DNA of 64,000 nt from Nitrospinaceae bacterium (GCA_029261405.1 JAJDBK010000017.1:1-64000); one strand, 5' to 3'. Positions 11,989 to 57,835 are shown, counted from the first letter of the stretch. Made by a program: numbers and translations. Notes: a model not told the origin generated them from the letters alone.

Positions 11989-13194
11989 ATGGGCAAGGTA
12001 CTAGAAGGCCCTGGAATGGAGCTTTTTAACAAATGGGGCATTTATACGCCTCGTCATTTTGTTATTTCCACAACTGACCAGTTCGAATCGCTGTTGCAAT
12101 CGAATGTCTGGATGCGGGAATCCAAGCTTGTAGTCAAAGCCCACGAGGCTTTGGGATCTCGAATGAAGCTCGGGCTTGTAAAGATCAACCTGGACGCCGA
12201 TGGCGCCAAAAAAGCGGCTGACGAGATTCTCGGAAGAGATATCGACGGTCTGATTATCTCCCAGGTAATCATTTCGGAAATGATCGTTCACGAGGAGGAG
12301 TTTTATCTCGCAGTAACCTCCACCCGTGAAGGCGCCGAGATCCTGATGGCCAAATTCGGCGGTATCGAAGTGGAAGAGAACTGGGAGCAGGTAAAACGAA
12401 CATTCGTTGAAGTCGGCGATAAACCGACCGATGAACAACTCGAAGAGTGCGCCAAATCAGCCGGGTTTGGTGGTGAGCTTGTAGAGAAGATGAGAAAATT
12501 CTCTCACCGTCTATTTGAAGCTTACGATAACGAGGATGGTTCCTATATGGAGATCAACCCGTTGATTGTCAACCCAGCCGATGGCAAGCTGTGCGCCCTC
12601 GACGCGGTTATCCTGCTCGATAACGACGCGCGATACAGACATCCCGACTGGAATTTTTCGTTTGCGTCTGAGTTCGGTCGCGCATATACCGAAGATGAGA
12701 AGGCGATCATGGAGATCGACTCCAGGGTCAAAGGCTCTGTTAAACTCATAGAGATACCGGGTGGCAAGGTTGCTCTCCTTCCGGCGGGCGGCGGCGCTTC
12801 GGTCTTCTACTCCGACGCGGTGATAAACCTCGGCGGAACCATCGCCAACTATTCCGAATATTCGGGTGATCCTCCCGCTTGGGCCGTGGAGGCGCTTACC
12901 GACAAGGTCTGCTCCCTGCCCGGAATCGAACATATCATCGTAGGTGGCGCTATAGCCAACTTTACCGATGTCAAAGCCACCTTCACCGGCATCATCGCCG
13001 GTTTCCGGAAAGCCAAGGAAGAGGGGAAACTCGACAACGTAAAGATCTGGGTACGCCGTGGCGGTCCGAACGAAGCGGTCGGCCTGGAGTCGATGAGAAA
13101 ACTTGCGGAGGAGGGGTTTGATATTCACGTTTACGACCGTTACACACCCCTTACCGACATAGCCAGATTCGCTCTTAAAGGGGAGGATAACTAA
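11989..13194 (+). CDS. aclB: ATP-citrate lyase, small (beta) subunit
   Basis: Part of the enzyme that splits citrate to acetyl-CoA and oxaloacetate using ATP and CoA, the diagnostic step of the reductive TCA cycle. At 401 residues it fits the small subunit. The N-terminal ATP-grasp region (about residues 1-240) has MEINPLIVN, as in succinyl-CoA synthetase beta chains. A C-terminal ligase-like domain contains GGAIANFTDV. It is separated from aclA by three bases and translated from a strong ribosome site. The subunit order aclB-aclA matches that in Chlorobium-type operons. Confidence 0.93.
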   Translation: MGKVLEGPGMELFNKWGIYTPRHFVISTTDQFESLLQSNVWMRESKLVVKAHEALGSRMKLGLVKINLDADGAKKAADEILGRDIDGLIISQVIISEMIVHEEEFYLAVTSTREGAEILMAKFGGIEVEENWEQVKRTFVEVGDKPTDEQLEECAKSAGFGGELVEKMRKFSHRLFEAYDNEDGSYMEINPLIVNPADGKLCALDAVILLDNDARYRHPDWNFSFASEFGRAYTEDEKAIMEIDSRVKGSVKLIEIPGGKVALLPAGGGASVFYSDAVINLGGTIANYSEYSGDPPAWAVEALTDKVCSLPGIEHIIVGGAIANFTDVKATFTGIIAGFRKAKEEGKLDNVKIWVRRGGPNEAVGLESMRKLAEEGFDIHVYDRYTPLTDIARFALKGEDN

Positions 13195-13197
13195 CCG

Positions 13198-15027
13198 ATG
13201 AGTATCGTTTGCGATGAAAATTCAAAAGTAGTGATAATGGGCGGCGTCGCTGGTGTCAGCGCGGCTATGCGAATGGCCGAGTTTTCATATCTGTGCAAGC
13301 TCCCTTTTTCCGTAACATCTTTTGTCTACCCCCCCGATGCGGGCAAGACAGCCGAGATCCAGTACGGCTCCCAGTTTCTTTCCATTCCGATATATAAATC
13401 GGTGGGAGAAGCGACTGCGAACCATCCGGAGACAAATACCGCCCTCGTATATATTGGCGCCAACCGCGCCTACAAGGGATGTATGGAAGCTCTGGAAAAT
13501 GAGAAGATACAGTTTGTATCGATGATTACAGAAGGCGTACCGGAGAAGGACGCCAAACTGCTTATCAAAAACTCAAAGAAGCTCGGAAAGCTCTTGAACG
13601 GCCCCTCTTCCATCGGTGTTCTCTCCGCTGGTAAATGTCGGCTCGGAGTTATCGGTGGTGAGTATAACAACCTGAAACTTTCCAAGCTCTTCAGGCCCGG
13701 ATCGTTTGGTGTCATCACAAAGTCGGGTGGTCTTTCAAATGAGATCATGTGGCTTGTATCGCAGTTCGCCGACGGGGTAACCACCACCATCGGTGTGGGC
13801 GGGGATACATATCCCGTAACCGATTTCACGACCTACCTCGATCTTTTCGAGAAGGATTCCGATACCAAAGCCGTCATCATCGTCGGCGAGATGGGTGGTA
13901 ACCTGGAAGAGGAAGCCGCCACCTGGTATGAGGAGAAACCTCGCAGAATCAAACTGATCGGCATGGTCTCCGGTTTCTGTCAGGAGACTTTGCCGAAGGG
14001 CATGAAGTTCGGTCACGCTGGCGCCAAAGAGGGCAAACATGGAGAAGGCTCCGCGAGAGCCAAGACCGAACGCCTCAGAGGCGCTGGCGCCATTGTCCCC
14101 GATACATTCGGCGACCTCGGCCCGACCATCAAACAGGTTTACGAAGACCTGAAAGCTACGGGACAGGCAAAAGAGATCAAGGATCTTCCTTTCTCCGAGC
14201 TACCCGATCTGCCGAGGAAGGTCGAAGAGGTTATCAAAGCCGGGGATGTCATGGTACAGCCCCTCTTCAAATCGACCATTACCGATGACCGTGGGGAGGA
14301 GCCGCTCTATTGTGGTTATCCAGCTTCCGAACTCATCAGTAAAGGGTACGATATTCCGCATGTTCTTGGGCTGTTGTGGAATAAAAAACTCCCCAACGAC
14401 AAGGAAGCGGAGATCATTAAACGTATCCTGATGTTAGCCGCCGACCACGGTCCATGCGTATCGGGAGCCCTCGGCACAATCATGGCCGCCTGCGCCGGAA
14501 TCGGCATGTCGCAATCTGTCGCCGCCGGGCTTATCATGATCGGACCCAGATTCGGCGGAGCGGTTACCGACGCGTCGAAATATTTCAACTACGGACTGGT
14601 CCACTACCCGAACGATATCCCCGGTTTTCTTACGCACATGAAGAAAAACGTTGGACCCGTTCCCGGAATCGGACACAGGGTCAAATCGCTCAAGAACCCC
14701 GATAAACGGGTTCAGGAGCTGATAAGAAGTGTTAAAGAACTTGGGCTTCGCTCCCCGCATCTCGATTACGCTCTGGCGGTCGAGGCTGTGACCACCGGTA
14801 AGAAGGATAACCTTATCCTTAACGTCGATGGGTGTATGGCGTGTGTCCTCACCGATCTCGGATTCCCGCATCAGTCGCTGAACGGTTTCTTCGTTCTGGC
14901 CCGGACAATGGGAATGATCGGACACTGGATCGACCAGAAACGTGAAGGCGGACGACTTATCAGGCTCTATAACTACCTGGTTAACTTCGCCGTCACACCG
15001 CGCAGAGAAGTTCCAGACCGAAAATAG
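13198..15027 (+). CDS. aclA: ATP-citrate lyase, large (alpha) subunit
   Basis: Catalytic large subunit (609 residues). The N-terminal CoA-binding, succinyl-CoA-ligase-like part (about residues 1-330) carries the phospho-histidine loop GHAGAKEGKHGEG near residue 280. The C-terminal citrate-synthase-like part (about residues 370-609) contains DHGPCVSGALG and the segment around IGHRVKSLKNPD. With AclB it forms acetyl-CoA for reductive-cycle CO2 fixation. A hairpin follows the stop codon. No other reductive TCA genes are in the window. Confidence 0.93.
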   Translation: MSIVCDENSKVVIMGGVAGVSAAMRMAEFSYLCKLPFSVTSFVYPPDAGKTAEIQYGSQFLSIPIYKSVGEATANHPETNTALVYIGANRAYKGCMEALENEKIQFVSMITEGVPEKDAKLLIKNSKKLGKLLNGPSSIGVLSAGKCRLGVIGGEYNNLKLSKLFRPGSFGVITKSGGLSNEIMWLVSQFADGVTTTIGVGGDTYPVTDFTTYLDLFEKDSDTKAVIIVGEMGGNLEEEAATWYEEKPRRIKLIGMVSGFCQETLPKGMKFGHAGAKEGKHGEGSARAKTERLRGAGAIVPDTFGDLGPTIKQVYEDLKATGQAKEIKDLPFSELPDLPRKVEEVIKAGDVMVQPLFKSTITDDRGEEPLYCGYPASELISKGYDIPHVLGLLWNKKLPNDKEAEIIKRILMLAADHGPCVSGALGTIMAACAGIGMSQSVAAGLIMIGPRFGGAVTDASKYFNYGLVHYPNDIPGFLTHMKKNVGPVPGIGHRVKSLKNPDKRVQELIRSVKELGLRSPHLDYALAVEAVTTGKKDNLILNVDGCMACVLTDLGFPHQSLNGFFVLARTMGMIGHWIDQKREGGRLIRLYNYLVNFAVTPRREVPDRK

Positions 15028-19588: not shown

Positions 19589-20683
19589 TTGTTGTGTTGT
19601 TTAACTGGTAGCCCCGCTTTTGCCGCTGACGACGATTTCTTCTCACAGCATTGGAAAACCCCGATTCCGCCTCAGGGGGAAGCGCCAGCCGGTTTTTCCG
19701 ATCTTGAGAAATCCCTGCGTGTAGCCGCATGCGGGGAATGCCATACAAGCCAACATGAAGAGTGGAAGGGTTCGAGGCACAGCATGGCGATGACAGCTGG
19801 TGTAACCGGACAGTTTCACGAGCCGTGGTTATCTACAGCGGGTGTGGAGTCGTGCAAGGATTGCCACGCTCCCCTCTTTGAGCAGAGGGGCGCCACCGCC
19901 GATATGACATTGGCGGAAGAGGGGGTTACCTGTGCGGCCTGCCATGTACGAAATCATGTGCGATTCGGCCCCACTCCCAAAGGTGAGAGAATTGATGAAC
20001 CTCCCCACAACGGATTCATCGAAGTTAAAGGTTTCGGAGACTCCAGGTTCTGCAAACCGTGTCACCAGTTTGAAGTGGATGGTCGCAGGGTAAACGGAAA
20101 ACTGCTGGAAGACACATACAACCAGTGGAAGGCAAGTGAATTTTCAGCGCGTGGTGTAGGGTGCGCTGATTGCCATATGCCGGGCCGACGACACCTCTTC
20201 AGAGGTATCCACGACAAGGATACAGTTTTGCAAGGGCTTACCATATCGGTGCGTCATGACCAAAACAGCGTAGAGTTAACGGTAATGAACAGCGGAGTGG
20301 GACATAGTTTCCCGACTTATGTGACACCACAGGTTTCGATAGGCGCAATTCTTGTGTCGGGTGATAAAAAGGTGGAACTCGGAAAGGAGTGGATCGGGTG
20401 GTTCGTTCCCCTCGATCTTTCGGAGGAGTATTTCGATACCCGGATAAAACCGGACGAATCTTTCACTGCGAGTTTTCCTCTTCCCGACAACGCGACAGGT
20501 TCGGTTGATCTGGTCATAACCGTCCTGCCAGATAATTTCTACCGCAGGTTTTTCGACTATCTGATCGAGTACAATGTCGAAGGAATTGATTTAACGAAGA
20601 TAAAAGAGGCCCACCGCAATAGTGTCGAGTCGGCCTATATTCTATACAGCAAAACCGTGGAGATAACGGCGCCAGGCCGATGA
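19589..20683 (+). CDS. Pentaheme c-type cytochrome, 5' end damaged
   Basis: Five CxxCH heme sites (CGECH, CKDCH, CAACH, CKPCH, CADCH) lie in the first 200 residues, followed by a beta-rich C-terminal half with GHSFPTYVTPQ. The architecture is shared with the pentaheme proteins at 53682 and 56497. The open frame starts only 29 bases beyond the IS target duplication. The signal peptide keeps its hydrophobic core and cleavage region (SPAFAADD) but lacks the basic n-region, an ATG and a ribosome site; the TTG at 19589 is nominal. It was probably a periplasmic electron carrier, and its 5' end and promoter look removed, so it may be silent. Confidence 0.7.
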   Translation: MLCCLTGSPAFAADDDFFSQHWKTPIPPQGEAPAGFSDLEKSLRVAACGECHTSQHEEWKGSRHSMAMTAGVTGQFHEPWLSTAGVESCKDCHAPLFEQRGATADMTLAEEGVTCAACHVRNHVRFGPTPKGERIDEPPHNGFIEVKGFGDSRFCKPCHQFEVDGRRVNGKLLEDTYNQWKASEFSARGVGCADCHMPGRRHLFRGIHDKDTVLQGLTISVRHDQNSVELTVMNSGVGHSFPTYVTPQVSIGAILVSGDKKVELGKEWIGWFVPLDLSEEYFDTRIKPDESFTASFPLPDNATGSVDLVITVLPDNFYRRFFDYLIEYNVEGIDLTKIKEAHRNSVESAYILYSKTVEITAPGR

Positions 20684-48721: not shown

Positions 48722-48929
48722 ATGAGCGAAATAATTTTTCCTTGTTGAAGAGGCTCCTGAGGGTGGGTTTACAGCAAGGGCCCTTGGTGAGTCGATCTTC
48801 ACAGAAGCCGATGACCAGGACGCTCTCAGGATAAACGTTCGTGCGGCTGTCGCCTGCCATTACGATGAAGGCTCCGCCCCGAAAGTGATTCGTCTTCACT
48901 TTGTAAAAGAAGAACTGATCACATTATGA
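48722..48929 (+). pseudogene. Frameshifted antitoxin-like gene preceding hicA
   Basis: The ATG at 48722 reads MSEIIF and then stops (CCT TGT TGA). One base out of frame, a coherent 60-residue sequence runs from LVEEAPEGGFTARALGES to VIRLHFVKEELITL and ends at 48929, overlapping the HicA-like ATG. Proteins of this pattern accompany HicA toxins. An extra T in the T-run at 48735-48739 explains the shift; a programmed slip is possible but less likely. Confidence 0.6.
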
Positions 48930-49168
48930 AGCTCCCCCGTTCATTGAGCGGGTCGGAACTTGTAAAAATCTTGCGGCGTGTTGGATACGATGTCACGCGC
49001 CAGACGGGGAGCCACATCAGACTTACGCATAAGAAACCTTTTCCCCATCATGTGACTATTCCTAATCATGATCCCCTTCGCATTGGGGCTTTGTCATCCT
49101 GGATGGTATTTTATGCAAGTGTAAATTTTACGTTCAATGAGCGAAGCATATCCCATGTGTTTACATAA
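48926..49168 (+). pseudogene. HicA/YcfA-like toxin, C-terminus replaced
   Basis: Residues 1-58 follow the HicA fold: SGSELVKILRRVGYDVTRQ, GSHIRLTH with the catalytic His, then NHDPLRIGALSS. After that the sequence (WMVFYASVNFTFN) no longer matches; the last helix is missing and the frame runs into the 3' end of the neighbouring minus-strand PIN-like gene. With the frameshifted partner this is a decaying toxin-antitoxin pair. Confidence 0.6.
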
Positions 49169-49602
49169 GGAACATTAAAATGCCCACAAACATTTGGAAT
49201 CTTCACCTTTTGGGAGTGTTGACTAACAAATGCCTCTTGAGTTACGACAGTGTCAGAATTTACCCGGGCGTGAGCAATTACCCAAGGGTCAGCTTTTGCC
49301 AAAAATTCCTTCACGTTGTTTTCGGGATAATTGTTTTTTACATAATCAGCAATCCGCCCAAGTTCCAATTGGACAGTGCCATTAGGTTCCACAAACATTC
49401 CGGTATCTTTTCGTTCTTTCGCCCATAAGGCGAGTTTGTCATCACCGTCTGCTAATTCTGAAAACACCATCGTCGAGCTATAGATCACTCCCCTTTCGGA
49501 TTGCTGATCAAGCAAATCCCAAAATGCTGGCATAAAGTCCATACCATAAGGCCCATTTTTAGCTTGGATATAAACATTTGAGTCCAAACAAAAATTAGGC
49601 AT
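49111..49602 (-). CDS. PIN-like DUF4411 protein (putative toxin)
   Basis: A 163-residue protein. FCLDSNVYIQAKNGPYG at the N-terminus carries the first PIN-type aspartate. YSSTMVFSELADGDD and AKADPWVIAHAR supply further conserved acidic residues. VVTQEAFV and KVKIPNVCGHFNVP match the DUF4411 C-terminus. It overlaps the upstream XRE-ImmA gene by 8 bases. The pair is a recurrent toxin-antitoxin-like arrangement, so RNase activity is likely but not shown. Confidence 0.75.
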   Translation of the reverse strand: MPNFCLDSNVYIQAKNGPYGMDFMPAFWDLLDQQSERGVIYSSTMVFSELADGDDKLALWAKERKDTGMFVEPNGTVQLELGRIADYVKNNYPENNVKEFLAKADPWVIAHARVNSDTVVTQEAFVSQHSQKVKIPNVCGHFNVPYVNTWDMLRSLNVKFTLA

Positions 49603-50782
49603 TTTCTCGCTTCCGCACTCCTAAATTATCAGCAATGTAGTACAGTGTTTTTACTCTTTTAACATTTGCCAATCTCGCGGCATCCCTGAATAAAAGCCGC
49701 CCTTCAAATGTTGCGGATATAACTGCGTTCAGAAATCTACTGCCTAAACGAACTTTGAGCGTTGAATAGAAATCGCCTCCACTACCAGTTTGGCGGGATT
49801 TATGTTTCTTTATCTCCTCTAATTCACGTTCGTACTGTTCTTGAAATTCAAACCTACTAATCCGATTTAGTTCCAGCGCTCTTCGAAGAATTACAATGGA
49901 GCTGACTCGATAGCGACGAACCAAGCTGTTAACATTGTCCCCAATATCAACATTTCGATCCCAGCTATCCACAAACTGTTTGCTTGGGACAAGTAATTCA
50001 GCCGCCACTTTATTACAAAAGTTTTCAATCTCCTTTGCATCACCGGCGCCGACTCTGCCAAGGTCAGGGTCAGAGATTCCGCTCTCTCCAACCCATATGT
50101 GTGCGAGTTCATGAGCTAATGTGAATATTTGTGCGGCTTTGGAGTCTTTTCCATTCAAAAATACCAGTGGTGCCAAAGCATCACTAATTGCAAATCCACG
50201 AAACTCTTGAACCGACAAAGGTCGGCTCGTATTATTTCCAACCACTCCATTACGCAAAACCAATATCCCGGACTCTTCTGTTGCAAACATGAATTTCCGG
50301 AGAAAATCCTCCCAGCTAGAAGAATTCTCCCTTGCAACAGAATTTAGTTGCAGAGTATCAGCAATATCTTCAGCCACATCTTCCGGGGAATCTTCGATGG
50401 AAAAACTAGCCACGAAAGGCAGTTCTGTTTCTCCAACTTCTCTTTGGTATTCCTGATACCACTGCTGTTTAGTCAAAGTATCACTTAGAAGGTCAGAGAA
50501 TTCCAAACTAATTGTCTCGTGTTCGACATTTCTGATAGTGCGTAAATCTGGTAAACCCAGCTTTTCTCTTGGAGGGGAAGACAAAAACAGGTATCCAAAT
50601 GGAACATGTAGTTTATCCGCAAGCGTTTGGGCCTGATGGAATGTAGGATGGGCATCCCCAGTCTCCCAAGAAAGCAAGCGTTCTTCCTTGACAGGAATCT
50701 TCGCAGCAAGCCCGCTGGTGGAGAGTTGAGACCGTTCACGGGCCCAACGCAGGATTTCTGGTTTTATTAGAGCTTCAGTCAT
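49595..50782 (-). CDS. XRE-type HTH protein with ImmA/IrrE metallopeptidase domain
   Basis: A 395-residue protein. The N-terminal helix-turn-helix (about residues 12-65) includes STSGLAAKIPVKEERLLSWE. The ImmA/IrrE (DUF955) domain has HELAHIWVG near residues 225-233 with a downstream acidic ligand in the helix carrying EIENFCNKVAAELLVP. It is likely the antitoxin/regulator of the PIN-like protein, with proteolysis possibly controlling release. Base composition is more AT-rich than the neighbours, consistent with transfer. Confidence 0.8.
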   Translation of the reverse strand: MTEALIKPEILRWARERSQLSTSGLAAKIPVKEERLLSWETGDAHPTFHQAQTLADKLHVPFGYLFLSSPPREKLGLPDLRTIRNVEHETISLEFSDLLSDTLTKQQWYQEYQREVGETELPFVASFSIEDSPEDVAEDIADTLQLNSVARENSSSWEDFLRKFMFATEESGILVLRNGVVGNNTSRPLSVQEFRGFAISDALAPLVFLNGKDSKAAQIFTLAHELAHIWVGESGISDPDLGRVGAGDAKEIENFCNKVAAELLVPSKQFVDSWDRNVDIGDNVNSLVRRYRVSSIVILRRALELNRISRFEFQEQYERELEEIKKHKSRQTGSGGDFYSTLKVRLGSRFLNAVISATFEGRLLFRDAARLANVKRVKTLYYIADNLGVRKRENA

Positions 50783-51260: not shown

Positions 51261-52412
51261 CTAATGAGCCGCTTCTCTTGGTGGGAAGATTTTCATCAGG
51301 ATGTAGAGGAAGAGGAAAGGGAGCAACGTCAGCCCTATGGTCATGAGGATTCCTTCCTTTTCGAGCCATTCCACGTTAAACGCCCTGAAGCCCACACCGC
51401 TTTTCGAGAAGAGTTGACCGCCGATAATGACGTTCCATCTCATCATCCATACTTCGAATATCGAGGTTACAGACGCGATAATCGCAAGCCTTGTATAGAG
51501 CGCTTCGTTCTCTTTTATGAAGATCATTATCGTCAGCAGTACGAAAGAGACCACAACACCGATTCCGAGTTGCATGATAACAAAGGTCTCCCATAGCCAA
51601 TCGGCAAGGAGGGTCGATATGACCACCCATGCGTCGGACGATTCGTAGAAGAAGAAGAGTATTTCAAGCCCCTCGGAGATCACATAACCGAGCATCGAAA
51701 GCCAGAGGAAGAAGCAGAGTGATCGGAGACATTCAAACGAGCGGGTCAATATCCCCTTATTGGAAAACCAGATGTAGAGCAGGATGACAAGCGCCAGACC
51801 AGACAAGATCGCCGAGAGGAGGAAGACCTGCGGCATCAACGGCGTTGACCACCACGGATTCGATTTGAGCGACCCGAAAAGGAAACCTACATAACCGTGC
51901 AACGTACACGCCGCCGGGATGCCGAGTAGCGCAAGCACGTTTATAACTTTTCTGTCAGCTTTTCTCGTCTCTTCGTTTATATCGGTAACGCCCAACGCCA
52001 GAACGCCCCAGAACATACGTTGCACCCCGCCACCACTGAATCGATAGTTGTGAACAATATCCTCCCGGTACGACACAAGAATCTCGAGTATCAGCACAAT
52101 AAGATAGAAGGAGTAGATAAAACCGAACCCGGCGATGGCAGAGTGCCAATGCGGGGTTATCATGATATTGAATGAGCGCTCCGGGTGACCGAGGTGGACG
52201 AGGAGCGGAAGTGTGACGCAGAGCATGAACGACAGGGAGACCAGCAGGGCAAAACGGCTGACCGGTTTCATCTCCTCACGCCCAAAGACATGGTAGAGGG
52301 CCGATGCGATAAACGCCCCCGCCACAAGCCCCGTTATAAATGGATATGTGACGATCATCAGCGACCAGAATATGTGGATATCGTTCGGGTAGAGGTATTC
52401 GGAGTATGTCAT
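51261..52412 (-). CDS. nrfD: NrfD/PsrC-type quinol-interacting membrane subunit
   Basis: A 383-residue membrane protein with about nine to ten helices of the NrfD/PsrC family, which exchange electrons with menaquinone. LLVHLGHPERSFN is the typical segment on the quinone side. It is the last gene of the eight-gene cytochrome operon, 6 bases after its FeS partner. It is expected to anchor the FeS subunit and link it to the quinone pool. Confidence 0.88.
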   Translation of the reverse strand: MTYSEYLYPNDIHIFWSLMIVTYPFITGLVAGAFIASALYHVFGREEMKPVSRFALLVSLSFMLCVTLPLLVHLGHPERSFNIMITPHWHSAIAGFGFIYSFYLIVLILEILVSYREDIVHNYRFSGGGVQRMFWGVLALGVTDINEETRKADRKVINVLALLGIPAACTLHGYVGFLFGSLKSNPWWSTPLMPQVFLLSAILSGLALVILLYIWFSNKGILTRSFECLRSLCFFLWLSMLGYVISEGLEILFFFYESSDAWVVISTLLADWLWETFVIMQLGIGVVVSFVLLTIMIFIKENEALYTRLAIIASVTSIFEVWMMRWNVIIGGQLFSKSGVGFRAFNVEWLEKEGILMTIGLTLLPFLFLYILMKIFPPREAAH

Positions 52413-52418
52413 GATCTT

Positions 52419-53156
52419 TTACCTGACCGCCTTGTCAATGCCGATGTAGAAACAGAACGGTTCGGTATTCAACTCCGGTTTCAGCACGTTGGTCAAGGCG
52501 GTCGATAGTATCTTTCGTATCTCGGAGCCTTTCTCCTTCAGGTCGCCGAATTTCCTGGCCCCGGTAGGGCAGACGGTGACACAAGCGGGTTGTAGACCTT
52601 TGGTTATTCTGTGGAAACACCAGGTGCATTTGTCCGCCGTATGGGTTCGCGGGTCGATATAACGGGAGCCGTAAGGGCAGGCCTGCACACAATATCCGCA
52701 ACCGATGCAACGTTGTTTATCGACCAGCACCACCCCTTGCGGCGATATGTAAGATGCGTTAACAGGGCATACCTGGGCGCACGGTGTATGCCGACAGTGG
52801 TTGCATAGTTTCGGGACGAAGAATCCTTTGGTCGGTTTTGCGTCTTTGGCGGGGTTATCGACCGATACGAATCCATTCTTGCCACCGTTCGGCGAATCGA
52901 CGTAGACATGGTCGTCCTCCGTAACCTGATAACGCTCCACCCACGTCCGGAAGAAGGCTGGAGGCACATCGTTCTCCCGTTTGTCGGCCCGCACACACGC
53001 GCCGCAACCGATGCAGGCGTTGATGTCGATAATGTATACCCAATAATGCTCGAACCAGTCGGGCGACTCTTCGGCTGTCAGACCTTTCGGGATAAAGACC
53101 GCCAACATTCCGCCTAGTCCGGCTTTAATAATGTCCCGCCGTGTTTTATCCGCCAT
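52419..53156 (-). CDS. nrfC: Tat-exported four-cluster ferredoxin subunit (PsrB/NrfC-like)
   Basis: 245 residues from the ATG at 53156. A Tat signal (KTRRDIIKAGLGGML) indicates export. Cysteine groups lie at 48/51/54, 118/121/126/130, 150/153/156/160 and 177/180/192/196. The fourth cysteine of the first group is aspartate (D58), so one cluster may be [3Fe-4S] or Asp-ligated. It is the electron carrier between the multiheme cytochromes and NrfD. A longer frame to 53318 overlaps the tetraheme gene and lacks a signal peptide. Confidence 0.88.
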   Translation of the reverse strand: MADKTRRDIIKAGLGGMLAVFIPKGLTAEESPDWFEHYWVYIIDINACIGCGACVRADKRENDVPPAFFRTWVERYQVTEDDHVYVDSPNGGKNGFVSVDNPAKDAKPTKGFFVPKLCNHCRHTPCAQVCPVNASYISPQGVVLVDKQRCIGCGYCVQACPYGSRYIDPRTHTADKCTWCFHRITKGLQPACVTVCPTGARKFGDLKEKGSEIRKILSTALTNVLKPELNTEPFCFYIGIDKAVR

Positions 53157-53164
53157 GATCCGAC

Positions 53165-53656
53165 CTACATTCCGGGGGAGTGGGGGTTGTGGCATTCGAT
53201 ACAGCCGATCTCGGAGTCGGTCGGGTCGGCGCCGTTGTTTTCCATGTGCAGGGCCATATCCTCCTGTCGGGGAAAACCTTCCGGGCGGGAGAAGAGGTAT
53301 TGGTGGCAGATGGCGCACGCATCCCGGCTCCTGTCGGGGGCGTTGGTCACTTCCGGGTGGGCGTTGGGGTGATTTTCGTCACCAGCGTAAGGCTGGAAGT
53401 GGCAGGTTTCACACGGAACTTTTGCGTGTCCTCCATCCGCGATTGCCCCGGCGTTTTCGTCGTGACATCCGGCGCATACGTCACTCCCCTGATGTATCGG
53501 GTCGCGGGCCTGTTCCTCGTACAGATGATCGCCCCTGAATTCGCCGTATTGTCCGAATGAGGCGGGTATCAGGAATGGACGGACACCGAGGCCCATGATT
53601 ATGATCGCCACGACGATTATCATGGCCCGTTTTATATAAAGATATGGATCGACCAT
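53165..53656 (-). CDS. Membrane-anchored tetraheme c-type cytochrome
   Basis: A 163-residue protein with one N-terminal helix (AMIIVVAIIIMGLGV) acting as uncleaved anchor or signal, then four CxxCH sites (CAGCH, CETCH, CAICH, CIECH). The short length and four hemes recall small NapC/NrfH-like or CymA-like carriers, but spacing does not match NapC exactly. It lies 8 bases before the FeS gene and is likely to relay electrons within the complex. Confidence 0.85.
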   Translation of the reverse strand: MVDPYLYIKRAMIIVVAIIIMGLGVRPFLIPASFGQYGEFRGDHLYEEQARDPIHQGSDVCAGCHDENAGAIADGGHAKVPCETCHFQPYAGDENHPNAHPEVTNAPDRSRDACAICHQYLFSRPEGFPRQEDMALHMENNGADPTDSEIGCIECHNPHSPGM

Positions 53657-53681
53657 GATATTCAGTCGGCTTTATCCGAGA

Positions 53682-54794
53682 TTATTTAACTATGCTTTGG
53701 GAACTGAACAGGGGTATCTTCATCAGCGTCCGTTCGGTCACCACAGGTTCGTACTGAAAGAAAAGTTCAGCTGAAACAGAGGCTACGGAACCTGTTTTTC
53801 TTGAAAGGATAAATTTTTCGCTTCTGGTCTCTTTCGGTTTAAGTCGGTTGTCTTCCGTTATTTTCACACCATACAGAAATACGTCCCCGTCCGACTGAAT
53901 TTCGTCCCCATCGGCGTTGACGACAATTTTTCGGTACTCCTTACTTAAGGTTTCGATTACAGCGCCTTTTGCGTTGTGGGTGCGGACCTCCAGGACAAGT
54001 TTCCGCGCAGGTGTGCCTGTGGGAACCGAATGGCCGATTTTTTCATTTGTTATATCGAGCGAAACCCCGATACGCTTGGCGGTTTTCTCCACATGGGTGA
54101 TTTTTACTGTGACAGAATCTGTCATAGTAGACAGATTGTGCGACAGGGAATGATCGTGGATCTTTTCTCTTCCCCTCTCGATGGCGGTCTTTCCGTCGAT
54201 CTCTTTCATGTGGCAGTTCTGGCACTCTTTACCCTCATTCGCGTAGGGTGAGCGCAACCATTCGTTGTACGTGTCTCCGACTTTTACGCCGTGACGGTTC
54301 TCGAAGGAATGACAGCCTGCGCAAAGTTTGGAGCCTGCGAAATCCTTTGAGTAGGCGGTCTTGTGATGGGGCGATTCGGCGTTTTCCAAAACCGACCGTT
54401 TGGTCTCTCCCGGTTCGGAGTGAAACGGCCCATCTTTTTTGTCAAGATCGATTTTTGCTACGGTATGACAGAAATCGCAGGTGACCCCTTCGGTCGTTAT
54501 GGGAAGCTCCACATCGTAATCACCGGTGATGCTTACTGTGGGGGCGTGACAGTTAAGGCAATATTTCTTCGCCGAACCCTTTGTCTCAGTATAGGCTTTA
54601 CGGTAAGCGGTCTGAAAAATCGGATTGCTGTAAGAGAGGGCGTGCAGACTCCCTTTCCAGTTGCGATAGTTGTCCTCATGGCAGTTGGCGCATACGAGAG
54701 AGCTTTCATAACTTTTATCGCCCGAAAAGGCCGGGAGAGTCATAGCGACAATAAATACCGGAACAAGGAGCGTCTTAAGTATTGAGGTTGTCAT
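53682..54794 (-). CDS. Pentaheme c-type cytochrome (second copy in operon)
   Basis: A 370-residue periplasmic protein with a signal peptide (MTTSILKTLLVPVFIVAMTL, cleaved near AFSGD). Five CxxCH sites: CANCH, CLNCH, CDFCH, CAGCH, CQNCH. A C-terminal beta-rich domain contains GHSVPTGTPARKLVLEV. It is paralogous to the proteins at 56497 and 19589, sharing the DTYNEW-type segment between hemes four and five. It sits between subunit IV and the tetraheme gene. It is probably an electron acceptor or donor of the cytochrome b complex. Confidence 0.88.
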   Translation of the reverse strand: MTTSILKTLLVPVFIVAMTLPAFSGDKSYESSLVCANCHEDNYRNWKGSLHALSYSNPIFQTAYRKAYTETKGSAKKYCLNCHAPTVSITGDYDVELPITTEGVTCDFCHTVAKIDLDKKDGPFHSEPGETKRSVLENAESPHHKTAYSKDFAGSKLCAGCHSFENRHGVKVGDTYNEWLRSPYANEGKECQNCHMKEIDGKTAIERGREKIHDHSLSHNLSTMTDSVTVKITHVEKTAKRIGVSLDITNEKIGHSVPTGTPARKLVLEVRTHNAKGAVIETLSKEYRKIVVNADGDEIQSDGDVFLYGVKITEDNRLKPKETRSEKFILSRKTGSVASVSAELFFQYEPVVTERTLMKIPLFSSQSIVK

Positions 54795-54825
54795 GGTATT
54801 TCACTTAGCTTAAAGGATTTTCCGG

Positions 54826-55314
54826 TCAGGTCAGCCAACCAAGTAGAGAAAACAGTATGGTAAGCAGAGCCGATACGGAGCCTACCGCCATGGCGATGGG
54901 GCGTTTTGATGGTCTCCGCTCCGCTCCGCCACGGTCGAGAAACGGGACCAGTAAAAGCGCCGTTACGGCTATACCCTGAATCACTATTCCAAGGATTTTC
55001 GGCGCCCAGCTTCCGAGAAAATCGAAATACTGGGCGAACTTAAGCGTATAAAAGGCGGCCAGAAAATACCATTCCGGCTTGATATGGGCCGGTGTGTCGA
55101 ACGGGTCCGCCTTGACTCCGAGATGCGCCGGGAAGATAATCGAAAAGGTGACAAGGATCATAATGATAGCGAGGCACTGCAAAACCTGCTCGATCATATG
55201 GTGCGGGAAGAACCAGTGGGCTTTCCCCTCTTTTACAAGGCGTTTTTTCTCCTCAAGAGGGATCGCCTTTACCTCGCACTCTTTTTTCTTCGTATATTCG
55301 GTTGGGTGAGCCAT
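54826..55314 (-). CDS. Cytochrome b subunit IV-like protein (PetD type)
   Basis: 162 residues from the ATG at 55314. It contains the Qo-site PEWY motif (KPEWYFLAAFYTLK) and three helices, matching subunit IV of split cytochrome b6f-type complexes. The N-terminus is charged and cytoplasmic. It starts 13 bases after the cytochrome b6-like gene. The longer upstream frame overlaps that gene and is not needed. Confidence 0.85.
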   Translation of the reverse strand: MAHPTEYTKKKECEVKAIPLEEKKRLVKEGKAHWFFPHHMIEQVLQCLAIIMILVTFSIIFPAHLGVKADPFDTPAHIKPEWYFLAAFYTLKFAQYFDFLGSWAPKILGIVIQGIAVTALLLVPFLDRGGAERRPSKRPIAMAVGSVSALLTILFSLLGWLT

Positions 55315-55327
55315 TTTTTTCCTCCCT

Positions 55328-56029
55328 CTACATCGGGCCTGAAATGCCTTGTCTTCTGATCTGCACGAGATGCAGACCGACAATGGAGGCTAGAATCAGG
55401 GGGAGTATCATCACATGGATCGCGAAAAACCGGGTCAGGGTTATCTGCCCGATATCTTCACCGCCCCGGAGAAAATAGCGGAGGTGTTCGCCGACAACAG
55501 GCATGGCGGCCGGAGTCTCGGTCCCCACAACGGTGGCCCAGTATGCAAGCTGTGTCCACGGAAGCAGATAACCGGTAAAAGACATTCCCAGAGTTAACAA
55601 AAAGAGGGTCACTCCCACCACCCAGTTAAGTTCCCTGGGCGCTTTGTAGATGCCGGTTACGAATATCTTGGTCATATGGATCAGGATAGTGATTATCATC
55701 AGGTTCGACCCCCAGGCGTGAACACCCCGTATCAGCCACCCGAAAGGAACATCATTCATGATTCTTGCCACCGACGAGTGAGCTTTCATGATGCTCGGCT
55801 CGTAGTAGATCATCAGCAGGGCGCCTGTTACTATCTGGCAGATGAAGATAAAGAAGCTGATACCGCCAAAGCAGGCCCAGAATGTCAGGTGGGCGGGTAC
55901 GATCTTCTCGAACATCTCGTCCTGCAAGATCTCTTTCACACCCAGCCGGTCGTCCACCGCAGAGAAGAGACGGATCGCAAGTTTGTTCCTGATCTTCAGG
56001 GGGCCTAGTTCGAGGGTTTCAAGTTCCAT
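55328..56029 (-). CDS. Cytochrome b6-like subunit
   Basis: 233 residues from the ATG at 56029, four transmembrane helices. Heme-b histidine pairs are visible in HAWGSNLMIITILIH and HVMILPLILASIVGLH. GYLLPWTQLAYWA lies at the Qo site. With the Rieske and subunit IV genes it forms a quinol:cytochrome c oxidoreductase core of the split b6f type. It starts 4 bases after the Rieske stop. Confidence 0.92.
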   Translation of the reverse strand: MELETLELGPLKIRNKLAIRLFSAVDDRLGVKEILQDEMFEKIVPAHLTFWACFGGISFFIFICQIVTGALLMIYYEPSIMKAHSSVARIMNDVPFGWLIRGVHAWGSNLMIITILIHMTKIFVTGIYKAPRELNWVVGVTLFLLTLGMSFTGYLLPWTQLAYWATVVGTETPAAMPVVGEHLRYFLRGGEDIGQITLTRFFAIHVMILPLILASIVGLHLVQIRRQGISGPM

Positions 56030-56033
56030 GCCT

Positions 56034-56492
56034 TCACACTTCTTCAATAATTATATATTCATCCTCGATCCTGGCGGAGAACGAGGGGAGTGGCGCAGGC
56101 GCAGGCCCGCCGAGAACAGTCCCGGAGGTGTCGAATCTGGCGCCGTGGCATGGGCATCTTAGCTCATTTGATTTTTCGTCCCACTTGACCACACACCCCA
56201 AGTGGGTGCAGACCACGGAGAGGGCCACAAGCTCCTGCTCGTTCGGGCGGATCACCACAGCTGGTTTATTGAGGAAACGAATGAATTTCGCATCCCCTAT
56301 AGGCACCTCGCCAGCGGGGAACTTCATGGAGCGCGCCCCCCCCTCTCCGGCCGACTCCTGCCGGGGCCAGAGATACTGGAATATCGGTATCACCATCATG
56401 GCGGCTCCGATGGCGCTGAAAAAAGCGGCGCTCATTCCGAGGAACCGTCTGCGGGTGTCGAGGTTCAAGTTATCGGCCAGGGTGGATGACAT
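56034..56492 (-). CDS. Rieske 2Fe-2S protein
   Basis: 152 residues from the ATG at 56492. A twin-arginine signal anchor (LDTRRRFLGMSAAFFSA) precedes a soluble domain with cluster motifs CTHLGC and CPCHG. It is the quinol-oxidising FeS subunit of the cytochrome b complex. It begins 4 bases after the upstream pentaheme gene, which strongly supports one transcript. Confidence 0.93.
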   Translation of the reverse strand: MSSTLADNLNLDTRRRFLGMSAAFFSAIGAAMMVIPIFQYLWPRQESAGEGGARSMKFPAGEVPIGDAKFIRFLNKPAVVIRPNEQELVALSVVCTHLGCVVKWDEKSNELRCPCHGARFDTSGTVLGGPAPAPLPSFSARIEDEYIIIEEV

Positions 56493-56496
56493 GGGC

Positions 56497-57672
56497 CTAC
56501 TGCTCTCCTGAAACCGTCTCGTCACGGCTTAACTCTATGCGCATCTCCGTTTCGGTCAGTATGGCTGGTGAGTAGAGGTAATCGACCCAGACAGAAACGA
56601 TGGCGCCTTTGTTATTAGGTATATAAAAAGTGAAGTGTTCGTTCCTGGTCTCTTTCGGATGAATTCTGTTGTCCTTGGCCAGGGAGGCGCCTTTGCCAAG
56701 CATGATATCGGCGTCGGATGTAAGTTCGATTCCTTGCTCGTCGAAGATCGCCTTTTCGTATACCACCCGTTTTTTGTAGACTTTTCCGCCGGGAACGCGA
56801 ACTTCGCAAAAGAGAATAAGTTTTCTCGTCGGCACACCTGTCGGGATACGGTGGCCCGATCCGACGTTGGTAACTTTGACGGAGACTGTCATTCGATCTT
56901 TGGCTCTGTTCACTCCGGCGATTTCAAGGGCAAGGGCTTTTTTCAGCTGGGTGATCGAATGAGACCCGGCCAGATCGTGGCTAGATATCCGCTCCCCCTT
57001 CTCACTTTTGACGTTCTCAGCGATTTCACCAGTCACCTGTGGCATGTGGCAGTATTGACACTGTTTCCCCTCATCGGCGTAGGCGCTATCTTTCCACTCG
57101 TCGTAGGTGGTCATAACCGGAACGCCGTTGGGGGTGTATTGATGGCATGTGGCGCAGAATTCCGATTTTGTGTGAATTTCGGAATGAGCCACCTTGTGCC
57201 GTTTGACCGATCCCTCTTTGTTGGGGCCATATTTCACCGATCCCATATCCAGTTCAAAAGGGAATTCGTGGTTATCATTGATCTCTTTTACGCTGTGGCA
57301 GAAATCGCAGGTTATACCTTCGGAGGCGATCGATACTTCAAGGTCGATCTCCCCTGTGACAATCGATGTCGGCGCGTGGCAGGAGAGGCAAAGTTTGGCC
57401 GCTTTCCCTTTACTGCTGTAGTAAGCCTGGATGTAGGAGGCGCGAAATATCGGGTCGCTTGTGGCCCTTGAGTGCATTGAGCCTTTCCACCTGTCGTATA
57501 TCTGTTTGTGGCAAGTTCCGCACCACCGGGAGGAGTTAAAACCGTTTTCGTTAACAGCTTCAACCGCAGGTTTGTGCGACTGCGAAAAAGCCGGGGATGA
57601 GAGCGGGAGGAGAAAGAACGGGACAAAAAAAAGCGCAAGCCGCAGTCTTTTTCCGGCGAAACTACTTACCAT
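56497..57672 (-). CDS. Pentaheme c-type cytochrome (first gene of the operon)
   Basis: 391 residues from the ATG at 57672, which gives a clean signal peptide ending near AFSQS. Five CxxCH sites: CGTCH, CLSCH, CDFCH, CATCH, CQYCH. The C-terminal domain has GHRIPTGVPTRKLILF. It is a paralogue of the proteins at 53682 and 19589. It leads the operon and could replace cytochrome c1 or f as acceptor from the Rieske protein. An upstream start at 57732 would disrupt the signal peptide. Confidence 0.88.
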   Translation of the reverse strand: MVSSFAGKRLRLALFFVPFFLLPLSSPAFSQSHKPAVEAVNENGFNSSRWCGTCHKQIYDRWKGSMHSRATSDPIFRASYIQAYYSSKGKAAKLCLSCHAPTSIVTGEIDLEVSIASEGITCDFCHSVKEINDNHEFPFELDMGSVKYGPNKEGSVKRHKVAHSEIHTKSEFCATCHQYTPNGVPVMTTYDEWKDSAYADEGKQCQYCHMPQVTGEIAENVKSEKGERISSHDLAGSHSITQLKKALALEIAGVNRAKDRMTVSVKVTNVGSGHRIPTGVPTRKLILFCEVRVPGGKVYKKRVVYEKAIFDEQGIELTSDADIMLGKGASLAKDNRIHPKETRNEHFTFYIPNNKGAIVSVWVDYLYSPAILTETEMRIELSRDETVSGEQ

Positions 57673-57835
57673 CACCGATTCACCCCGATCTGTTTGTAAA
57701 ATACAAGCCTTGCGATTATCAATATACCGCACGATTATCGTAGTTTAAGCTAATTATGTCAATCCCGCTGTCCGTATCGGGGTTTGAGCGAGCGTGTTAC
57801 AATTGCAACTTTTCAAACTTTGAGGATCAGATAAT

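Follow-up and report, generated by a model that had tools for sequence, protein, structure and literature searches.

An eight-gene respiratory cluster in a Nitrospinaceae genome

In this work, we analyse an eight-gene cluster of cytochromes, iron–sulfur proteins and membrane subunits in a 64,000-nucleotide stretch of DNA (the window) from Nitrospinaceae bacterium (GCA_029261405.1 JAJDBK010000017.1:1-64000), whose draft genome comprises 81 contigs. Positions 51261-57672 hold eight minus-strand open frames, in the order pentaheme cytochrome c (c5A), Rieske protein, cytochrome b6 (b6), subunit IV (IV), a second pentaheme cytochrome c (c5B), tetraheme cytochrome c (c4), ferredoxin-type subunit (FeS) and NrfD-type membrane subunit (NrfD), with gaps of 4, 4, 13, 31, 25, 8 and 6 bp from c5A to NrfD (Table 1). 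Among the eight proteins there are matches to the Pfam families Rieske, Cytochrome_B, Cytochrom_B_C, Fer4_11, NrfD and Cytochrome_C554, and their nearest curated families were taken from NCBIfam; family matches and conservation in relatives rule out chance open frames. An earlier description made from the DNA alone (the sequence-only reading) had already listed eight minus-strand genes in this order, with gaps of 4–31 bp and haem motif counts of 5, 5 and 4, and the open frames and Pfam matches bear it out. It had also noted that a pentaheme protein takes the position of a missing cytochrome c1 or f; there is indeed no gene for either within the cluster and, judged by gene position, c5A occupies their place.

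In the 31-bp gap between IV and c5B, a consensus scan found no promoter-like site and, on the minus strand, no terminator-like site; this is compatible with a single transcript, and we infer that co-transcription of all eight genes is plausible.

Table 1. Genes and promoter-like site of the cluster, in order of transcription
Feature	Coordinates	Strand	Basis
Promoter-like site TTGACA-17-GATAAT, upstream of c5A	57734..57762	-	Sigma-70-like consensus scan, 11/12 matches; not functional evidence
c5A, exported pentaheme cytochrome c, PHC / c552 family, 391 aa	56497..57672	-	5 CXXCH; 5ze8 relative
Rieske 2Fe-2S protein, 152 aa, one N-terminal membrane helix, CTHLGC...CPCHGARF	56034..56492	-	PF00355; b6f Rieske alignment
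Cytochrome b6, 233 aa, His 104/118/205/220, Cys53 at haem c_n position	55328..56029	-	7r0w match
Subunit IV, 162 aa, PEWY, invariant Glu42 near haem c_n pocket	54826..55314	-	PF00032
c5B, pentaheme cytochrome c, 370 aa	53682..54794	-	5 CXXCH; paralogue of c5A; 5ze8 match
c4, tetraheme cytochrome c, 163 aa, one N-terminal membrane helix	53165..53656	-	4 CXXCH
FeS, exported ferredoxin subunit of the twin-arginine translocation (Tat) type (NrfC/PsrB type), 245 aa, four Cys motifs, TRRDIIK Tat-like start	52419..53156	-	PsrB match
NrfD-type membrane subunit, 383 aa	51261..52412	-	PF03916

Two operons that stand apart in relatives

The closest named relatives of this genome are Nitrospinota metagenome-assembled genomes, and the order of the genes was followed across a phylum sample of 24 genomes. 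Close relatives of the cytochrome b6 gene occur in most genomes of the class, with c5A-Rieske-b6-IV in place wherever the contig allows. Several of these same-order relatives share with the window a divergent metG upstream of c5A, and in seven loci (L051, L052, L053, L055, L056, L058 and L059) folE follows IV; the window has retained metG upstream, but the gene after its IV is c5B, not folE. The second half, c5B-c4-FeS-NrfD, is a separate four-gene operon at another genomic place in G006, G007, G008 and G011, while G009 has c4-FeS-NrfD units that lack c5B, and G018 has c5B near NrfD on the opposite strand. The two halves are adjacent in none of these six relatives, all of which carry both. The search for this gene order across genomes, proposed as a check in the sequence-only reading, therefore returned two separate operons and the eight-gene order in no other member of the class. 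The genes, their order, their conservation and the separate ancestry of the two halves are established by this comparison, and the best reading of the tandem in the window is that two ancestral, separately conserved operons were joined in this lineage. Within the class only this lineage has them end to end; similar pairings arose repeatedly in other bacterial groups.

An order seen in no other class member, in a draft genome of 81 contigs, could also have arisen in assembly, by the false joining of two separate loci, from this genome or from two different organisms. We consider this very improbable, as both halves are complete and meet inside a 31-bp gap, all eight genes have similar GC content at third codon positions (0.55-0.70), each half groups with same-order relatives, and there is no second close copy of either half in the genome.

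Further arrangements were seen around these genes. One locus of G009 (L013, 2214-8246) holds a tandem pair of c4-FeS-NrfD units with a triheme protein between them. In the window, by-eye reading of the translations shows a helix-turn-helix/metallopeptidase-like gene shortly downstream of nrfD (49595-50782, minus strand), a PIN-like gene downstream of nrfD (49111-49602, minus strand) and, beside the latter, a short HicA-like frame (48926-49168). These frames near the rearranged end are possibly toxin–antitoxin genes.

Paralogous pentahemes, each tied to its own half

The pentahemes of the window are 37% identical and find the same best solved match, 5ze8 (E 2.5e-20 for c5A and 7.4e-22 for c5B). 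Together with their five CXXCH motifs, this similarity places them in the PHC / pentaheme c552 family (ExtKL, Gsu2801, Thermochromatium tepidum c552; PMC11976967), with which they share the C-terminal domain; they differ from its described members in sitting inside quinone-oxidoreductase operons and in scoring below the curated ExtKL equivalog cut-off. The family is related to an archaeal cytochrome nanowire (PMC11976967). In the pentaheme tree, a c5A clade (18 rows, all from Rieske/b6 operons) separates from a c5B clade (7 rows) with a split support of 100. This split and the 37% identity indicate a duplication older than the sampled radiation of the class, after which each paralogue has kept its own module partner, and the age of the two clades rules out c5B as a recent copy of c5A.

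Five further histidines of c5A are invariant in the relatives aligned. As these suffice to provide a second ligand for every haem, c5A is more likely an electron carrier than an enzyme, a view on which it weighs that some members of the PHC family have an open haem (PMC11976967). Pentaheme-triheme-FeS-NrfD operons of like order also occur in Methanoperedens-type genomes (L088, L090, L094, L109 and L116); we rejected them as homologous four-gene units, their pentahemes matching neither c5A nor c5B.

Because the halves lie apart in class relatives and c5A and c5B are each tied to their own half, we read the cluster as two menaquinone–cytochrome c oxidoreductase modules, ancestrally separate operons that now stand in tandem and most likely encode two complexes with a common pool of periplasmic cytochromes, a reading to which we give a probability of roughly two in three. 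The suggestion of the sequence-only reading that the eight genes make up one unit or assembly is not supported by this pattern.

Module 1, a predicted Rieske/cytochrome b complex with a pentaheme cytochrome

The best solved match of the window's b6 is the cytochrome b6 of 7r0w (E 1.6e-63). In the relatives aligned, the four histidines and Cys53 of b6, the PEWY motif (in all subunits IV) and Glu42 of IV are invariant. The four haem-b histidines, PEWY and the 2Fe-2S ligands in CTHLGC and CPCH identify a member of the Rieske/cytochrome b superfamily, and Cys53, aligned with Cys35 of cytochrome b6, assigns it to the b6f-type subgroup with haem c_n, whose binding is predicted here. A canonical cytochrome b6f complex was rejected, given that the cluster has no cytochrome f and that the curated PetB, PetC and PetD scores were missed (256 versus 325, 83 versus 250 and 53.6 versus 127 bits). 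Low-potential haem c_n is associated with a glutamate as its second ligand (PMC12954380), and Glu42 of IV may be this ligand.

Aligned to b6f Rieske proteins, the CPCHGARF motif of the window lacks the potential-raising Ser and Tyr; its relatives have CPCHGG or CPCHGA, mostly with Phe. Loss of the Ser or the Tyr lowers the potential of the yeast Rieske protein by about 130 or 65 mV, respectively (PMC12954380), and the lack of both residues suggests that the window's Rieske protein works at a menaquinone-level potential.

Module 2, a probable NrfD–FeS unit with multiheme cytochromes

The FeS subunit has PsrB as its best solved match (2vpw_B, E 5.4e-45). Its Tyr155, in CIGCGYC, aligns with an Ala of Thermus thermophilus PsrB, a position that corresponds to Tyr113 of QrcC, which is essential for the reaction with menaquinone (PMC13059093). 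The fourth Cys of its first motif is replaced by Asp58 (window 52983-52985), a substitution common to close relatives and present in 23 of 82 family members. NrfD belongs to the NrfD/PsrC superfamily (PF03916, 122.9 bits against a gathering threshold of 25.8); by sequence, its profile matched no solved chain at E 0.01, and a fold search with its model (predicted local distance difference test (pLDDT) score 85.5) returned ActC of alternative complex III (ACIII) as the best solved match, with a template modelling (TM) score of 0.81. The same kind of search with the c4 model (pLDDT 87.7) found no solved relative. Beyond its four CXXCH motifs, c4 has three invariant histidines and one nearly invariant one (H77, H137, H159 and H93), consistent with a bis-His electron wire.

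Two known complexes were rejected for this half. The cluster has no molybdopterin-like ActB fusion, second NrfD (ActF), ActD or ActE, as ACIII would have, and for DsrMKJOP the DsrO and DsrP scores were missed (153.8 versus 200 and 43.8 versus 350 bits), and the cluster lacks DsrM and DsrK.

Respiratory and carbon genes elsewhere in the genome

The window encodes the two ATP-citrate lyase subunits at positions 11989-15024 (plus strand). This enzyme marks the reductive tricarboxylic acid cycle, and its presence makes the autotrophic source proposed in the sequence-only reading plausible. The genome further encodes an aa3-type oxidase and four molybdopterin proteins, including a NuoG-like one; on contig 78 (L180), a QrcB-like molybdopterin protein and, next to it, a QrcC-like FeS protein make up a further quinone module. 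The NrfA and CdhC families have no match in the genome. Beside heptosyltransferase genes, the window also holds a match to MtrC/MtrF domain II/IV (19589-20680, plus strand).

These genes bear on the direction of electron flow through module 2, which cannot be read from its sequence. Module 1 might oxidise menaquinol in a proton-motive manner while module 2 takes electrons from low-potential periplasmic cytochromes to reduce menaquinone; together they would let the cell switch between respiring and driving electrons in reverse to supply autotrophy. QrcABCD does reduce menaquinone, with an H+/e- of 1 (PMC13059093), Tyr155 of FeS stands at the essential position of QrcC, and both ATP-citrate lyase and the aa3-type oxidase fit such a switch. 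We nevertheless hold such opposed directions to be rather unlikely: CbcSTU-type units, described as menaquinol:ferricytochrome c oxidoreductases, run the other way (PMC11434368), and the Qrc-like pair of L180 could fill the reducing job.

Proposed electron paths and points that weigh against them

The cofactors, the quinone type and the electron path of the two complexes are inferred. In module 1, the outer site would oxidise menaquinol; one electron would pass through the low-potential Rieske cluster to c5A, and the other through the two b haems, probably with haem c_n, to the inner quinone site in a Q cycle. In module 2, which would resemble CbcSTU, NrfD and FeS would exchange electrons with menaquinone on the periplasmic side, connected via c4 to c5B. 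Both complexes would be made together because of the tandem, and would be linked by the shared periplasmic cytochrome pool.

Several points weigh against this proposal. Some of the relative assemblies are fragmented, and the G006 contig stops 106 bp past IV, although an unrelated gene precedes c5B in that genome. The Rieske protein Kustd1480 is high-potential despite a Phe for the Tyr (PMC12954380), so that the potential of a Rieske protein cannot be read from its motif with certainty. Lastly, NrfD genes of this kind are repeatedly paired with those for cytochrome b or Rieske proteins, in several phyla, and physical contact could be the cause.

Recurrent linkage of NrfD with cytochrome b and Rieske genes

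The trio of tetraheme cytochrome, FeS and NrfD is widespread: named genomes yielded at least 574 confirmed relatives of NrfD, and most of the 80 best loci carry the trio. We counted an NrfD gene as linked if a cytochrome b, subunit IV or Rieske gene lies within 7 kb on the same strand. By this measure, 10 of the 90 genes in the NrfD tree (the window included) are linked, and supported branches force at least eight changes of state. In a broader sample, this NrfD family is present in 35 of 385 genomes, with further linkage in L162 and L163; L173 is linked too, but with a more distant NrfD. Rough arithmetic, from about three cytochrome b matches per genome of about 2.6 Mb, puts chance linkage at about 1%. 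As genes for respiration tend to cluster in any case, and the loci were picked by sequence similarity, these counts show recurrence, not contact. A search of plasmids found only distant NrfD proteins.

The recurrence bears on whether the eight products form a single supercomplex, in which the two pentahemes would join the b6-type core to NrfD-FeS-c4 and allow direct transfer between the quinone sites, for example in a confurcating or bifurcating menaquinone loop. The short gaps of the tandem, the homology of c5A and c5B and the repeated linkage, seen again in L162 and L163, would all fit such an assembly. Yet the modules lie apart in every other class member that carries both, and the cytochromes b linked elsewhere are mostly unsplit or fused, so that their clusters give no indication of a common interface and look like independent arrangements. 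On balance, one joined complex is unlikely. Its extended form, a b6-type/NrfD supercomplex with quinone sites of opposite coupling wired by homologous pentahemes, which evolved repeatedly as a reversible menaquinone–cytochrome converter, is more doubtful still. The window cluster is a variant on described systems, and a supercomplex is not supported.

Closest described systems

The closest described single cluster, compared by annotation only, is PcmABCDEFG of Geobacter metallireducens (Gmet_2117-2123), which already unites both kinds of part: a membrane protein, a 4Fe-4S protein, two cytochromes b, a Rieske protein and two 4-haem cytochromes c (PMC10989804). It differs from the window cluster in its gene order and in its multihaem set, two tetrahemes as against two pentahemes plus a tetraheme. 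Its transcripts are strongly up in growth by direct interspecies electron transfer with Methanosarcina barkeri (PMC10989804), and another study assigns it to a p-cresol gene cluster (PMC7324539); a search for papers that link p-cresol methylhydroxylase with Rieske or bc1 returned nothing.

Module 2 matches CbcSTU (Cbc4) of Geobacter, by composition and order only, in its tetraheme cytochrome c, 4Fe-4S ferredoxin and integral membrane subunit (PMC11434368; PMC10989804), with a pentaheme in front and the Rieske/cytochrome b complex upstream as the differences. Module 1 shares with CbcVWX of Geobacter and with the bc-like operons of Nitrospina and Kuenenia a Rieske protein and a cytochrome b, with a multihaem cytochrome c replacing cytochrome f/c1; the window has a PHC/c552 pentaheme where they have an octaheme or another c subunit, as in Nitrospina gracilis, whose split-b operon adjoins an octaheme (PMC3578206). 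ACIII and QrcABCD combine NrfD, FeS and a periplasmic-side multihaem cytochrome as module 2 does, the window's NrfD model being nearest to ActC, but the window cluster is without their molybdopterin-like subunit, second NrfD, ActD/ActE or QrcA/QrcB. The likeness to Geobacter-type complexes that the sequence-only reading had pointed out is real, and is better put as a CbcSTU-like half beside a Rieske/cytochrome b complex; its impression of a set richer than Cbc is only partly right, as PcmABCDEFG already combines both kinds of part.

With two operons that occur both apart and joined within one class, and paralogous pentahemes that stay faithful to their halves, the cluster offers a natural test of how quinone–cytochrome modules are assembled. 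The recurrent pairing of NrfD with Rieske/cytochrome b in several phyla, little described in the literature searched, suggests a functional partnership, which could matter for how electrons reach extracellular acceptors and for the supply of reductant in autotrophs.

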